DNA from: Actinoplanes derwentensis
Lineage (GTDB): Bacteria > Actinomycetota > Actinomycetes > Mycobacteriales > Micromonosporaceae
Assembly (NCBI RefSeq): GCF_900104725.1
Contig: NZ_LT629758.1
Coordinates: forward strand, 9,962,001-10,026,000
Length of the DNA: 64,000 bases
Direction of reading: 5' to 3'
Below the pieces are notes generated by a model. It searched no databases, was not told the DNA's origin, and saw nothing but the letters and a program-made list of their open reading frames with translations. Position numbers and translations under genes: made by a program. This document shows positions 14,064-17,016 of this stretch, one piece after another; the first letter of the stretch is position 1; each line of letters starts with the position of its first letter.

Positions 14064-15188
14064 ATGAGTATCGATCTAACTCCCGAACAGAGGGCCTTCA
14101 CCGAGGCGATCGACGACTTCTGCCGCCGCGCGGCCGGCTCCCGCGAACAGCGCGGCGACGGGCCACACCACCCCGGCCTCTACCGCAAGATGGCCGACGT
14201 CGGCTGGCTCGGCGTCACCGTCCCCGACGAATACGGCGGCGCCGGAGCCGGCATGGTCGACACCTGCCTGTTCCTGGAACACGTCGCCTACGGACAGGCC
14301 CCCGTCGGCGGCTTCACCACCAGCGCCATCGTCGCCGCCGCCGTCGAACGCTCCGGAACCGGCGACCAGAAGAAGACCGTCCTCGGCGGACTCGTCGCCG
14401 GCCGCGTCTACGCCATCGCGATGAGCGAACCCGAAGCCGGCTCCGACGTCGCCAACCTCTCCTGCCGCGCGGTTCGCACCGGCGACGGCTGGACCGTCGA
14501 CGGCCAGAAGACGTGGTGCTCCAACGCCCACATCGCCGACGCGATCCTGCTGGTCGCCCGCACTTCCGGCAGCCCTGGCGACCATCACGGCCTGACCATG
14601 CTGCTGGTCCCCACCGACACTCCCGGCCTGCGGATCAGCGGCATCGAGACGATGGGCGGCAAAGAGGTCAACGACCTCTACTTGACTGACGTGCGACTAC
14701 CCGCTGACGCCGTGGTCGGCAATGTTGACAAGGGCTGGCAACAGTTGATGGCCGGCCTCAACATTGAGCGCCTAATCCTCGCCGCACTGATGCTGGGCAC
14801 CGCCCAGCGGGCCTTCGACGACGCCCTCGACTTCATCAAGCAACGTAGACAGTTCGGCCGCCCGGTCGGCAGCTTCCAAGCACTACGCCACCGCATCGCC
14901 GACCTGGCCACCGAGATCGAATGCTGCCGCCTGCTGGTCCACCGCGTCGCCACCCTCACCGACCGCGACCCCGGCAGGGTCCTGCCCCGCGAGAGCTCCA
15001 TGGTCAAACTGAAGGTCACCGAGGTCGCCCGCCAGGTGGCCCTCGCCGGCATGCAGATGATGGGCGGCTACGGCTACGCCACCGAATACGACATGGAACG
15101 CCACGTCCGCGCCACCCTGGTCTCCACCATCTACGGCGGCACCAGCGAGATCCAACGCGACATAATCGGAAAAACCTACGGACTCTGA
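14064..15188 (+). CDS. Acyl-CoA dehydrogenase
   Basis: 374 aa, three-domain FAD enzyme. Seen: ADVGWLGVTVPDEYGGAGAG (N-domain), YAIAMSEPEAGSDVANLSCR (flavin-binding strand), DGQKTWCSNAHIADAILLVA (signature 1), RQFGRPVGSFQALRHRIADL and the C-terminal signature QMMGGYGYATEYDMERHVR, ending YGGTSEIQRDIIGK, which fits the usual C-terminus. A catalytic Glu is usual near that Gly-Gly-Thr stretch. It catalyses alpha-beta desaturation of an acyl-CoA. ATG 14064 has AAAGG upstream; a TTG 18 bases earlier is less likely. It completes an alcohol/aldehyde to acyl-CoA beta-oxidation route with the neighbours. Confidence 0.95.
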   Translation: MSIDLTPEQRAFTEAIDDFCRRAAGSREQRGDGPHHPGLYRKMADVGWLGVTVPDEYGGAGAGMVDTCLFLEHVAYGQAPVGGFTTSAIVAAAVERSGTGDQKKTVLGGLVAGRVYAIAMSEPEAGSDVANLSCRAVRTGDGWTVDGQKTWCSNAHIADAILLVARTSGSPGDHHGLTMLLVPTDTPGLRISGIETMGGKEVNDLYLTDVRLPADAVVGNVDKGWQQLMAGLNIERLILAALMLGTAQRAFDDALDFIKQRRQFGRPVGSFQALRHRIADLATEIECCRLLVHRVATLTDRDPGRVLPRESSMVKLKVTEVARQVALAGMQMMGGYGYATEYDMERHVRATLVSTIYGGTSEIQRDIIGKTYGL

Positions 15189-15470
15189 TCTTGTACGGGG
15201 TCCGGCACCCCCACAACCGCAGCGCCCCGGCCCGCTCCGACGAGGCGACGCGGTCCCGGCGCCAGGCCGAAGCGCCGGCTGCGGCCGGCGAGCGGTGGTC
15301 ACCGACGGCGGCGCCGCTTCCACAGCGCCCTCCACCCTGCTTCCACCAGCCTCAGCCTGGCCGTCCGCTCTCGCCACTGTCCCGCGGCCGTCCCGTGCGC
15401 GGTCTCGGCCTCGTTCCCCCGCCTTCGTCCGTGCACTCGCCTCCGGCGAAAGCCGTGGTCACCGGCGCTG
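15189..15470. other. Intergenic stretch without recognised gene
   Basis: Nothing recognisable is encoded between the acyl-CoA dehydrogenase stop and the DUF1304 promoter. The frames open here are high-GC shadows. Confidence 0.5.
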
Positions 15471-15483
15471 TACGCTCCCCCTC
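15471..15483 (+). promoter_or_regulatory. Leaderless promoter of the DUF1304 gene
   Basis: TACGCT (15471-15476, TANNNT) ends seven bases before the ATG at 15484. The intervening bases are all pyrimidines, so no ribosome site exists. No good -35 was seen. Confidence 0.5.
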
Positions 15484-15837
15484 ATGCTGATCATCGGGAA
15501 CGTCCTGGCTGCGGTCGTGGCGCTGATCCACGTGTACATCGCCGTGCTGGAGATGTTCCTGTGGACCAAGCCGCAGGGCCGCAAGGCGTTCAACCTGACC
15601 CCGGAGTTCGCCGAGCAGACCAAGGTGCTGGGCCTGAACCAGGGTCTGTACAACGGTTTCCTCGCCGCCGGCCTGATCTGGGGCCTGCTGGGCGGCGGCT
15701 TCGGCCCGATCGTCTTCTTCCTGATCTGCGTGGCCGTGGCCGGTGTCGTCGGAGCCCTGACCGCCAGCCGCCGCATCCTCTACGTCCAGACCGTCCCCGC
15801 GATCCTGGCCCTGATCCCGGTGCTCCTGGCCCACTGA
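15484..15837 (+). CDS. DUF1304 membrane protein
   Basis: 117 aa with four hydrophobic segments (about 1-25, 50-70, 73-92 and 98-116). The N-terminal VALIHVYIAVLEMFLWTKPQ carries the conserved His/Glu pair, and FAEQTKVLGLNQGLYNGFLAAG is the family signature. Function is unknown. The stop codon overlaps a -35-like CTGACA that serves the tRNA genes immediately downstream. Confidence 0.9.
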   Translation: MLIIGNVLAAVVALIHVYIAVLEMFLWTKPQGRKAFNLTPEFAEQTKVLGLNQGLYNGFLAAGLIWGLLGGGFGPIVFFLICVAVAGVVGALTASRRILYVQTVPAILALIPVLLAH

Positions 15838-15863
15838 CAGCCGTGACTGCTCACCCGTAGGAT
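15834..15863 (+). promoter_or_regulatory. Promoter of the tandem tRNA-like genes
   Basis: CTGACA (15834-15839), an 18-base spacer and TAGGAT (15858-15863) form a near-consensus sigma-70-type promoter. Transcription would begin near 15870-15871, at the very base of the first tRNA-like stem. CTCACCCG (15850-15857) in the spacer is complementary to 15869-15876. Confidence 0.6.
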
Positions 15864-15873
15864 CGTGGCGGGT

Positions 15874-15947
15874 GAGGGCTGTAGCGCAGAGGTCGTCGCG
15901 CCGCCCTGCGAAGGCGGAGGACGCCGGTTCGAATCCGGTCGCCCTCA
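15874..15947 (+). tRNA. Atypical tRNA-like gene, anticodon GCG (Arg)
   Basis: The anticodon stem CCGCC/GGCGG (15901-15905, 15913-15917) encloses the loop CTGCGAA with U33 and anticodon GCG. The T arm is GCCGG-TTCGAAT-CCGGT and the D arm contains GCGCAGAGGTCGTCGCG. The acceptor is irregular: GAGGGC pairs with GCCCTC for six bases, then a T-C mismatch; extending outward, GGTGAGGGC (15871-15879) pairs with GCCCTCACC (15941-15949) for nine. GCG is unusual because bacteria normally read CGC with tRNA-Arg(ACG). It may be a divergent paralogue of the next gene or a degenerate copy. Confidence 0.55.
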
Positions 15948-15956
15948 CCTCCCGGG

Positions 15957-16029
15957 TGGGCCGTAGCGCAGAGGTCGTCGCGCGACCTTGCAAGGGTCGA
16001 GGACACCGGTTCGAATCCGGTCGGCCCAC
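15957..16029 (+). tRNA. Atypical tRNA-like gene, anticodon GCA (Cys)
   Basis: A full 73-nt cloverleaf: acceptor TGGGCCG/CGGCCCA, U8-A9, D arm GCGCAGAGGTCGTCGC, anticodon stem CGACC/GGTCG with loop TTGCAAG (anticodon GCA), five-base variable loop AGGAC and T arm ACCGG-TTCGAAT-CCGGT. The discriminator is C73 and can pair with G-1 (15956), giving an eight-base acceptor as in tRNA-His; ordinary tRNA-Cys has U73. D and T arms are nearly identical to the neighbouring GCG gene. CCA is not encoded. Transcription is probably joint with the first gene. Confidence 0.6.
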
Positions 16030-16121
16030 ACCCGCGGGATATACCGGTCGGCCCGGACTTGCGGGATATGCCGGTCGCCCGCGCCAGCGGATATCCGGTC
16101 GGCCTTTACCTGCGGGGATGA
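16017..16121 (+). repeat. Four tandem 24-27-nt repeats beginning with the tRNA 3' end
   Basis: Units at 16017-16043, 16044-16070, 16071-16094 and 16095-16121 each start CCGGTCGGCC or CCGGTCGCCC and end in a GCGGGATAT-like block. The first unit is the 3' half of the T stem plus acceptor of the GCA tRNA-like gene, so the array looks like reiteration of the tRNA tail. Confidence 0.75.
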
Positions 16122-16187
16122 GCAGTTCAGTGGCGCCGCCTGAGCCGGGCGAATCGGCGGTGGTCTCGGCTCGGTAGGTTTGTGGCC

Positions 16188-16751
16188 ATGGTGGACGTGC
16201 GGCTGGAGCCGATGACCGAGGACGAGTACAAGCCGTGGCGGGAGGCGGTGGAAGTCCAGTACGCGGAGAGCATCGCCGCGTCGGGCCGCTCGGCTGAGGA
16301 CGCGGCCCGTCAGTCCGCCGAGGCCTACGCCCAACTACTTCCGGACGAGTCCGCCACCCCGGGCCACCATTTCTGGTACGCCTACGACAGTGACCGCCAA
16401 GACGGTGACCGCCAAGAGAGTGACCGCCAGGACGGAGATGGCCGGGACGGTGACGGCCAAGAGGGTGACCGTCAGGATCGAGATGACCACCGGGGCGGGG
16501 ATCGGCGGGTCGGATTTCTCTGGGTCAAGGTCACCGACAACGCCGCGTTCATCTACAACATCGCGGTCGAGCCGGACGTGCGCCGCAGCGGTTACGGCCG
16601 GGCGATCATGCTGGCCGCCGAGCGCTGGTGTCGGGACAACGCGCTGACCAGGATCGGTCTGCACGTCTTCGCGCACAACACCGGCGCTCGGGCACTCTAC
16701 GAGCAGCTCGGCTTTCTCGAGACCGGCCGCAACCTGGCCAAGAACCTGTGA
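16188..16751 (+). CDS. GNAT-family N-acetyltransferase with an Asp-rich pentapeptide insert
   Basis: 187 aa. The GNAT core is clear: VGFLWVKVTDNAAFIYNIAV (strands 3-4), the acetyl-CoA loop DVRRSGYGRAIM, AERWCRDNALTRIGLHVFAH and NTGARALYEQLGFLETGRN. N-terminal helices contain WREAVEVQYAESIAASGRS. Between strands 2 and 3 lies a repetitive hydrophilic insert (residues 69-98). TAGGTT (16175-16180) ends seven bases before the ATG, suggesting a leaderless mRNA; GTG 16182 is an alternative. The substrate is unknown. Confidence 0.9.
   Translation: MVDVRLEPMTEDEYKPWREAVEVQYAESIAASGRSAEDAARQSAEAYAQLLPDESATPGHHFWYAYDSDRQDGDRQESDRQDGDGRDGDGQEGDRQDRDDHRGGDRRVGFLWVKVTDNAAFIYNIAVEPDVRRSGYGRAIMLAAERWCRDNALTRIGLHVFAHNTGARALYEQLGFLETGRNLAKNL
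16392..16481 (+). repeat. Six in-frame 15-bp repeats inside the acetyltransferase gene
   Basis: Six 15-nt units encode DRQDG, DRQES, DRQDG, DGRDG, DGQEG and DRQDR. They expand a surface loop between core strands without breaking the frame. Confidence 0.85.
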
Positions 16752-16761
16752 TCGCGGTTCG

Positions 16762-16968
16762 TCAGAGTTTCTGAGTCGCGGTGGTGGACTCGTGCAGTTC
16801 CGAGGTGGTCTCGGTCACGAACCGGCCGGTACCGGCGCTGCGATGCACCTCGCGGTCTCCGGCGCTTCCGTCGACGTGCTCGGTGGTGGTGTGCTGGGGG
16901 TCGCGTTCGGCGGTGCTCTCCTTGACGAACTTGCCGCTGCGGGTGCTCCGGTTGACGTCGCGTTCCAT
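16762..16968 (-). CDS. Small duplicated-motif protein, unknown function
   Basis: 68 aa, hydrophilic. The sequence is two copies of one motif: DVNRSTRSGKFVKESTAERD (4-23) and EVHRSAGTGRFVTETTSELH (40-59), each followed by a Thr-rich strand (TTTEH, STTAT). The spacing of R-S-x-x-[SG]-G-[KR]-F-V-x-[ET] recurs exactly. I recall similar short proteins in actinobacteria but know no function. The start at 16968 has GGAGG five to six bases upstream; MEVL at 16980 is an alternative. Confidence 0.7.
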   Translation of the reverse strand: MERDVNRSTRSGKFVKESTAERDPQHTTTEHVDGSAGDREVHRSAGTGRFVTETTSELHESTTATQKL

Positions 16969-17016
16969 CAGGACCTCCATGTCTCGTGGTGACTTCCGCA
17001 TACCCCGGTCCCGCCC

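Follow-up and report, generated by a model that had tools for sequence, protein, structure and literature searches.

We describe a diversified family of tRNA-like genes that heads a conserved block of protein-coding genes. Both tRNA mimics and tRNAs with long acceptor stems were known already; the new element is the family and its place before the block. Our analysis concerned a tandem pair of tRNA-like genes in the window, the whole 64,000-nucleotide stretch of Actinoplanes derwentensis DNA analysed here. Judged by sequence and predicted fold, the pair belongs to this family, which is spread through many actinomycete genera. Hence, while the original prediction of two odd genes was right in that both are real, they are not isolated but part of a many-genus family linked to a protein block. 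The reading that we favour, although we place it slightly below an even chance, takes most members to be non-translational tRNA mimics linked to the block, some possibly also decoding, with the window pair as orphans. In a literature search of partial coverage, the family itself had no published description beyond tRNA-Asp-AUC (Chen et al. 2022) and two papers mentioning that tRNA.

A tandem pair of tRNA-like genes with atypical acceptor stems

The features of the pair are listed in Table 1. In both genes the cloverleaf core, consisting of D, anticodon, and T arms, is recognised by ARAGORN and Rfam. ARAGORN calls tRNA-Arg(gcg) at 15874-15949 and tRNA-Cys(gca) at 15956-16032, which agrees with the GCG and GCA anticodons first proposed. 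Matches to Rfam RF00005 score 48.4 bits (gene 1) and 54.3 bits (gene 2), against a cut-off of 29, and tRNA is the sole Rfam family listed for window positions 15000-17000. The genes are an 82-bp tandem duplication with 85% matches, including an identical 20-base stretch (TAGCGCAGAGGTCGTCGCGC), and both have extra acceptor pairs. The description of the pair as paralogues with atypical acceptors therefore stands.

The 9-bp acceptor suggested for gene 1 was recovered, and a bulge and one more pair extend it to 10 pairs around one bulge. Gene 2 has seven normal pairs, then G-1:C73, as was predicted, a bulged A, and two further pairs. Note that neither gene has a 7-bp acceptor followed by an unpaired discriminator of the right identity, which for Cys is U73; gene 2 has G-1:C73 instead. 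The T stem is 5 bp in both window genes and in the 21 aligned members considered below. Fold energies give modest support (z = -1.53 for gene 1 and -1.91 for gene 2). The minimum-energy structure differs from the full cloverleaf for either gene; the extended acceptor of gene 1 does form. Stronger evidence is provided by compensatory changes across relatives and, by this comparison of sequences, the tandem pair is confirmed as real rather than a chance resemblance.

A CTGACA-N18-TAGGAT promoter, starting transcription at the first stem, was also part of the original prediction. It is the only sigma-70-like site in 15700-16250, where the mean over 50 shuffles is 0.0. The TAGGAT hexamer begins 24 nt before T8 of gene 1, within the cluster of -10 elements seen across the family at -26 to -21, and we infer a transcript start for the pair at about 15870. 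Gene 2 starts a few bases after gene 1 and lacks a TANNNT box of its own. Separately, the forward strand at 16015..16104 holds about 3.5 degenerate tandem copies, with a period of about 27, of the gene 2 3' end (CCGGTCGGCCC plus about 16 nt).

Table 1. Positions of the gene pair, its parts, and its neighbours in the window
Feature	Position	Strand	Details or evidence
tRNA-like gene 1, extended acceptor	15870..15950	+	ARAGORN, Rfam, family model, fold
Gene 1 acceptor	15871-15879 with 15941-15949		U15880 bulged; G15881:C15940
Gene 1 D arm	from 15882
Gene 1 anticodon arm	15901-15917		loop 15906-15912; GCG 15908-15910
Gene 1 T arm	15923-15939
tRNA-like gene 2	15954..16032	+	ARAGORN, Rfam, family model
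Gene 2 acceptor	15957-15963 with 16022-16028		G-1(15956):C73(16029); bulged A16030; G15955:C16031; G15954:C16032
Gene 2 anticodon arm	15983-15999		GCA 15990-15992
Promoter	15834..15863	+	CTGACA (15834-15839), 18-nt spacer, TAGGAT (15858-15863)
DUF1304 membrane protein, upstream neighbour	15484..15837	+	PF06993, E 9.6e-42
GNAT acetyltransferase, downstream neighbour	16182..16751	+	PF00583, E 5.6e-17; outside usual protein block

Relatives occur in many actinomycete genera

A blastn search with the pair identified relatives in genomes of the same genus, having the same body and other anticodons. A covariance model, R1, was built from 21 aligned relatives, window genes included. The score of about 92 bits for each window gene is thus a product of construction, because both are training sequences. 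Within the genus, 28 of 67 genomes have members at 71 bits or more; the next matches reach at most 65 bits, and matches below this gap were judged by R1 score alone. Within the taxonomic family, 87 of 350 sampled genomes have an R1 match at E 3e-14 or better, by E-value alone. Across the class, 25 of 394 genomes match R1 and 21 of 394 are confirmed by the motif. Four class matches of 64-65 bits (G452, G564, G598, and G742) were dropped, since the motif is absent. The sample of 246 genomes from the phylum gave five matching genomes: the own genome, another of the same class (G471), and three (G788, G853, and G883; 68-71 bits) rejected as members outside the class, their matches being ordinary tRNA-Pro. 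Hence, weak R1 matches need a motif check.

A pattern scan of named genomes gave at least 119 stretches at 80 or more loci. Genera among the matches listed were Streptomyces, Micromonospora, Actinoplanes, Dactylosporangium, Nocardiopsis, Herbidospora, Actinomadura, Rhodococcus, and others. Members resemble one another in the D and T arms and vary greatly in the anticodon arm, and their acceptor runs on beyond pair 1:72. Note that constancy of the D and T arms partly reflects selection of the sample, because members were found partly by those arms; the acceptor flanks lie outside the pattern.

Mobile DNA was also searched. Eighteen plasmid records match the DNA of the pair and, in the three inspected, no annotated block gene adjoins the match. 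Some Streptomyces plasmids carry orphan members. Phage matches to the pair are tRNA-Asp genes. In a Streptomyces longwoodensis plasmid (L365), pair-like DNA is found about 0.2 kb downstream of a polymorphic-toxin gene and of a small possible immunity gene; compare members at other loci, which come after SUKH-like/ankyrin genes.

The extended stem and promoter position point to selection on the RNA

Both partners vary in 10 of the 12 acceptor pairs of the 21 aligned members, and the observed score was not reached in any of 500 shuffles. The 12-pair structure was chosen from those same 21 sequences; hence, the count was repeated on 200 distinct members, in a fixed register from T8 and position 66. 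Bases -1 and 73 are paired in 175 of the 200 (C-G 103, G-C 58, U-A 8, A-U 3, and G-U 3). Further pairs occur at -2:74 in 174 members, -3:75 in 161, -4:76 in 111, and -5:77 in 130. The original prediction had named loss of compensatory changes across relatives as the sign of a pseudogene; on both counts, these changes are kept. An unbroken extension of at least three pairs past 1:72 is present in 139 of 200 members, compared to 26% for mixed pairings, with the 5' side taken from one member and the 3' side from another. For the 73 ordinary tRNAs of the own genome, the extension is 0 pairs in 55, one in 17, two in a single case, and three or more in none. Both window genes have the extended acceptor, each with one bulge, and the total acceptor in the family is 9-13 bp.

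Promoter position is similarly constrained. In 174 of 200 members, a TANNNT box begins 27-21 nt ahead of T8, with just 7 other occurrences within the 60 upstream nt. The ordinary tRNAs of the own genome have a much weaker cluster (16 TANNNT in the same span among 73 genes) and further occurrences scattered elsewhere. The usual distance between a -10 box and the transcript start is 6-8 nt. Hence, transcription probably starts at the foot of the long stem. At one locus (L241), up to six tandem copies precede one gene, each with its own TANNNT. We conclude, from the compensatory changes and fixed -10 box together, that selection acts on the RNA.

Many members precede a conserved block of protein-coding genes

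Searches of 146 loci with six protein families, using tblastn, showed a recurrent same-strand order: RNA(s) - SDR - LRR - ankyrin - MoxR - vWA. The complete block is found, for example, at L211, L235, L248, and L329. Actinoplanes genomes have variants with the order RNA - LRR - ANK - RNA - ANK - MoxR - vWA, including the own genome at 1.44 Mb (L040), where the block lacks SDR. Members lie on the same strand, and no more than 600 nt upstream of SDR, LRR, or ANK, in 76 of 102 cases from the RNA search and 58 of 102 from the pattern; the two sets overlap. The median gap between a member and the first matched residue of SDR, LRR, or ANK is 89 nt. Within 1.5 kb of members, no SDR, LRR, or ANK gene was flagged on the opposite strand. 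Just downstream of SmiAnk (the SUKH-like/ankyrin gene), ANK, or LRR genes we found 12 of 205 members. Orphans without a block number 15 of 102 (RNA search) and 28 of 102 (pattern, 9 of the 102 being at a locus edge), giving 43 of 204 for the two overlapping sets; a separate count gave 42 of 205. Many of the latter are solitary CCA members of Streptomyces (25 of 42).

The linkage can also be approached from the protein side. The LRR protein occurs in 14 of 296 class genomes, and all 14 carry members (13 by R1, and G629, with two motif-positive copies, by pattern), compared to 21 of 394 class genomes overall. In 13 of the 14, a copy lies no more than 400 nt upstream of the SDR/LRR block; in the exception, G620, the nearest copies are 9.4 kb upstream and 3.6 kb downstream. 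Note that the LRR query was taken from an RNA-fetched locus; the other genomes are independent. No plasmid or phage match to the LRR protein was obtained at E 1e-20. SDR was rejected as a marker of the system: although 120 of 200 family genomes encode it, what the examined loci mostly contain is a paralogue that stands alone, without the RNA. This SDR-like paralogue (at G000:C1:528612-529979 and like loci) is found in many Micromonosporaceae, with no tRNA-like genes nearby and the same Tyr-to-Thr change as described next.

The SDR-like protein of the block is helical at its N-terminus and also contains a four-Cys ribbon and an SDR fold (model pLDDT 88.4, with Foldseek matches to SDRs). In all 45 aligned sequences, four of which are stand-alone paralogues, the position of the catalytic Tyr is Thr (T367), Lys is kept (K371), and the four Cys are invariant. 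Classical dehydrogenase chemistry is therefore doubtful. The ankyrin protein has its repeats at the C-terminus, after an N-terminal part of roughly 400 residues (model pLDDT 93.7). Among the 50 structural matches listed of 999, none is to the N-terminal part; those listed are of ankyrin/DARPin type or carry such a part. The last block gene encodes a DUF2201_N metallopeptidase with a vWA domain and HEVAH motif, and adjoins the gene for a MoxR-type AAA ATPase. The latter weakly matches PF20030 (bpMoxR), at 21.7 bits against a cut-off of 27. PADLOC returned no known defence family beyond generic repeat or AAA similarity, and the Pfam matches of the block proteins scanned include no VMAP/iSTAND component.

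Decoding as an alternative to mimicry

The most serious rival explanation, which we nevertheless consider unlikely, is that members are functional accessory tRNAs. Leader and trailer would pair in the precursor only, and the mature RNAs would be charged and decode, as reported for tRNA-Asp-AUC of Streptomyces SPC6. According to that report, this RNA was seen in small-RNA reads at levels like those of tRNA-Asp-GUC, with A34 unmodified in 97%, and it rescued GAU-rich eGFP and helps to decode GAU (Chen et al. 2022; PMC9262613). Its anticodon stem has three G:C pairs and two unpaired positions, with a purine at 32 and C33, and the genes after it encode LRR, PE-PGRS-like, MoxR, and hypothetical proteins (PMC9262613). 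The same report gives its occurrence as 32 of 4649 streptomycete genomes, with no homologues outside Streptomyces, and suggests that the gene cluster is an integrative element at the tRNA 3' end (PMC9262613).

Going by this description, our Streptomyces members L152, L219, and L335 have the same gene cluster and anticodon-arm signature; the arm CCCAC-GCATCGA-GCTGG of L152, and its like in L219, fits the peculiarities given. Matched by description rather than sequence, tRNA-Asp-AUC is thus very probably a family member, and the fact that it is expressed gives the family its best experimental support. There are also differences. In the available text it is described as one tRNA, with the extended acceptor, sister anticodons, and SDR gene unmentioned, and it is said to be confined to Streptomyces, whereas our scans place the family in many genera.

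Some decoding signals agree with a role as accessory tRNAs. The discriminator is G73 in 15 of 19 AUC and 27 of 37 CCA members. This is the base that AspRS and TrpRS would want. However, base 73 follows its partner at -1, not the anticodon. Thus, U73, which both ordinary Cys genes have, is absent from all 17 GCA members, and base 73 of GUC members is C in 5, G in 5, and A in 1. Moreover, the compensated pairs from -1:73 to -3:75 leave no free discriminator. U33 occurs in 118 of 173 seven-base anticodon loops, and is absent from 55, compared to 68 of 73 ordinary tRNAs. Also hard to reconcile with decoding are the up to six tandem copies before one gene at L241, and the fact that several anticodons duplicate those of ordinary tRNAs in the own genome. 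CCA at 74-76 is present in 18 of 200 members; note that it is encoded in just 18 of 73 ordinary genes of that genome. Ordinary tRNA genes, as a full account, were rejected on the strength of the paired position 73 and compensated extension.

Other explanations fare less well. The fold might be a cis-acting 5' leader element, forming the first structure of the operon mRNA and, by recruiting tRNA enzymes, controlling the stability, processing, or translation of that mRNA. While the same-strand position just upstream of SDR, LRR, or ANK, and the -10 box directly before the fold, suit such a role, it is made improbable by the many orphans, window pair included, by tandem copies that each have their own TANNNT, and by those members placed just downstream of SmiAnk, ANK, or LRR genes. 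Alternatively, members such as gene 2 could be mischarging adaptors, taking histidine and misreading other codons; G-1:C73 is the main HisRS identity element. We think this very improbable: the G-C pair seen at -1:73 in 58 of 200 members, gene 2 among them, is outnumbered by C-G, and pairing runs beyond -1:73, unlike in tRNA-His. Least credible are integrase attachment-site remnants or tRNA pseudogenes, which would explain the patchy distribution within the genus, the orphans on some Streptomyces plasmids, and the degenerate repeats after gene 2, but are already contradicted by covariation and the fixed -10 box, on which grounds attachment-site debris was rejected, and by tRNA-like genes lying both at the 5' end of the block and inside it (L040 and L114).

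A possible role for the RNAs

We return to the reading that most members are non-translational tRNA mimics. The suggestion, made for the window pair at the outset, of an unusual or non-translational role is plausible in this light. If transcription starts at the foot of the long stem, RNase P would find hardly any free leader, or none, and the discriminator end would not be free either. The RNA could then persist, with its 9-13 bp acceptor, as a mimic of tRNA. More weakly, the elbow formed by the constant D and T arms, with the long stem, may be a handle bound by at least one block protein, and the MoxR ATPase and vWA-metallopeptidase may be switch and effector. By way of speculation, the variable anticodon arm might serve as a bait or sensor for something acting on tRNAs, such as an anticodon nuclease or tRNA starvation. 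This weakest step takes its cue from the diversity of the anticodon arms, from the repeat proteins, and from a MoxR/vWA pair of the kind found in conflict systems, as far as the available parts of those papers go (PMC8195603, PMC7159879). Combined, these steps describe an actinomycete ribonucleoprotein system, comprising SDR-like pseudo-dehydrogenase, LRR, ankyrin, MoxR, and vWA-metallopeptidase proteins, of which the mimics would be the RNA part and their anticodon arms baits sensing attack on, or the state of, cellular tRNAs. We regard this fuller scheme as possible, though on balance not likely.

Were it true, many minor or odd tRNAs called in actinomycetes would do something other than, or besides, decoding, and a multi-gene system that includes an RNA would have been largely overlooked. 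The published member raised antibiotic yields in Streptomyces, an effect read as decoding alone; if members are mimics, that effect deserves a second look.

Comparison with known systems

Allo-tRNAs have 8/4 or 9/3 stems, with a total of 12 bp in acceptor and T stems, the T stem being shortened; selC-like tRNAs are considered with them here. The family shares with both an acceptor of more than seven pairs and odd anticodons. It differs in keeping a 5-pair T stem, in lacking a long variable arm, and in reaching 9-13 pairs by pairing of leader and trailer. The likeness to allo-tRNAs drawn in the original prediction, which itself noted the five pairs kept in the T stems, leaves out the systematic extension (-1, -2, -3, and further with 73, 74, and 75) and the longer acceptor that this gives.

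The bacterial Y RNA YrlA is a tRNA-mimicking RNA encoded beside the vWA-domain protein that binds it, Ro60/Rsr (a TROVE protein). The arrangement of a tRNA mimic encoded beside a vWA-domain protein is common to both. The family described here, in contrast, has a complete tRNA body, and its vWA partner is a DUF2201 metallopeptidase accompanied by MoxR.

MoxR-vWA pairs have been placed in ternary conflict systems (Kaur et al. 2020, PMC7159879; Kaur et al. 2021, PMC8195603). To the extent that these papers were available, the resemblance is the MoxR and vWA pair, present in the block of relatives and the own genome; the differences are the LRR, ankyrin, and SDR-like partners, and the RNA. DUF2201 and ankyrin are absent from the main text of the former paper (PMC7159879), and tRNA and SDR from that of the latter (PMC8195603).

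The window pair in its own genome

The window pair is an orphan, without an adjoining protein block. A tblastn search of window positions 5001-28000 found no SDR, LRR, ANK, MoxR, or vWA genes. The surroundings, consisting of an acyl-CoA dehydrogenase, DUF1304, and later a large secreted protein and LacI-type regulator, are common to four other loci (L078, L115, L116, and L117), where SmiAnk is directly upstream of the tRNA-like genes. This same pair is also seen at L189 and at L182, the latter being very probably the L116 record again. The site is thus conserved, and SmiAnk was either lost from the window or never present there. As a detached copy, the window pair could provide such RNAs in trans for the 1.44-Mb block. 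Within the downstream GNAT gene is an in-frame 15-nt tandem repeat of 5.7 copies (window 16386-16471).

The own genome, a single 10.65-Mb contig, has 75 RF00005 matches. The tRNA-Arg and tRNA-Cys genes, which it had been proposed to list, include ordinary Arg genes (acg, tct, cct, and ccg) and two ordinary Cys(gca) genes besides the pair. The pair is therefore dispensable for decoding. Beside the scattered ordinary set, there are clustered arrays of 13 and 7 extra tRNA genes, at G000:C1:4661709-4662770 and 1912650-1913280 respectively. A Gly-Cys-Val tRNA trio is present in two copies, separated by about 21 kb, at G000:C1:9184666 and 9205581.
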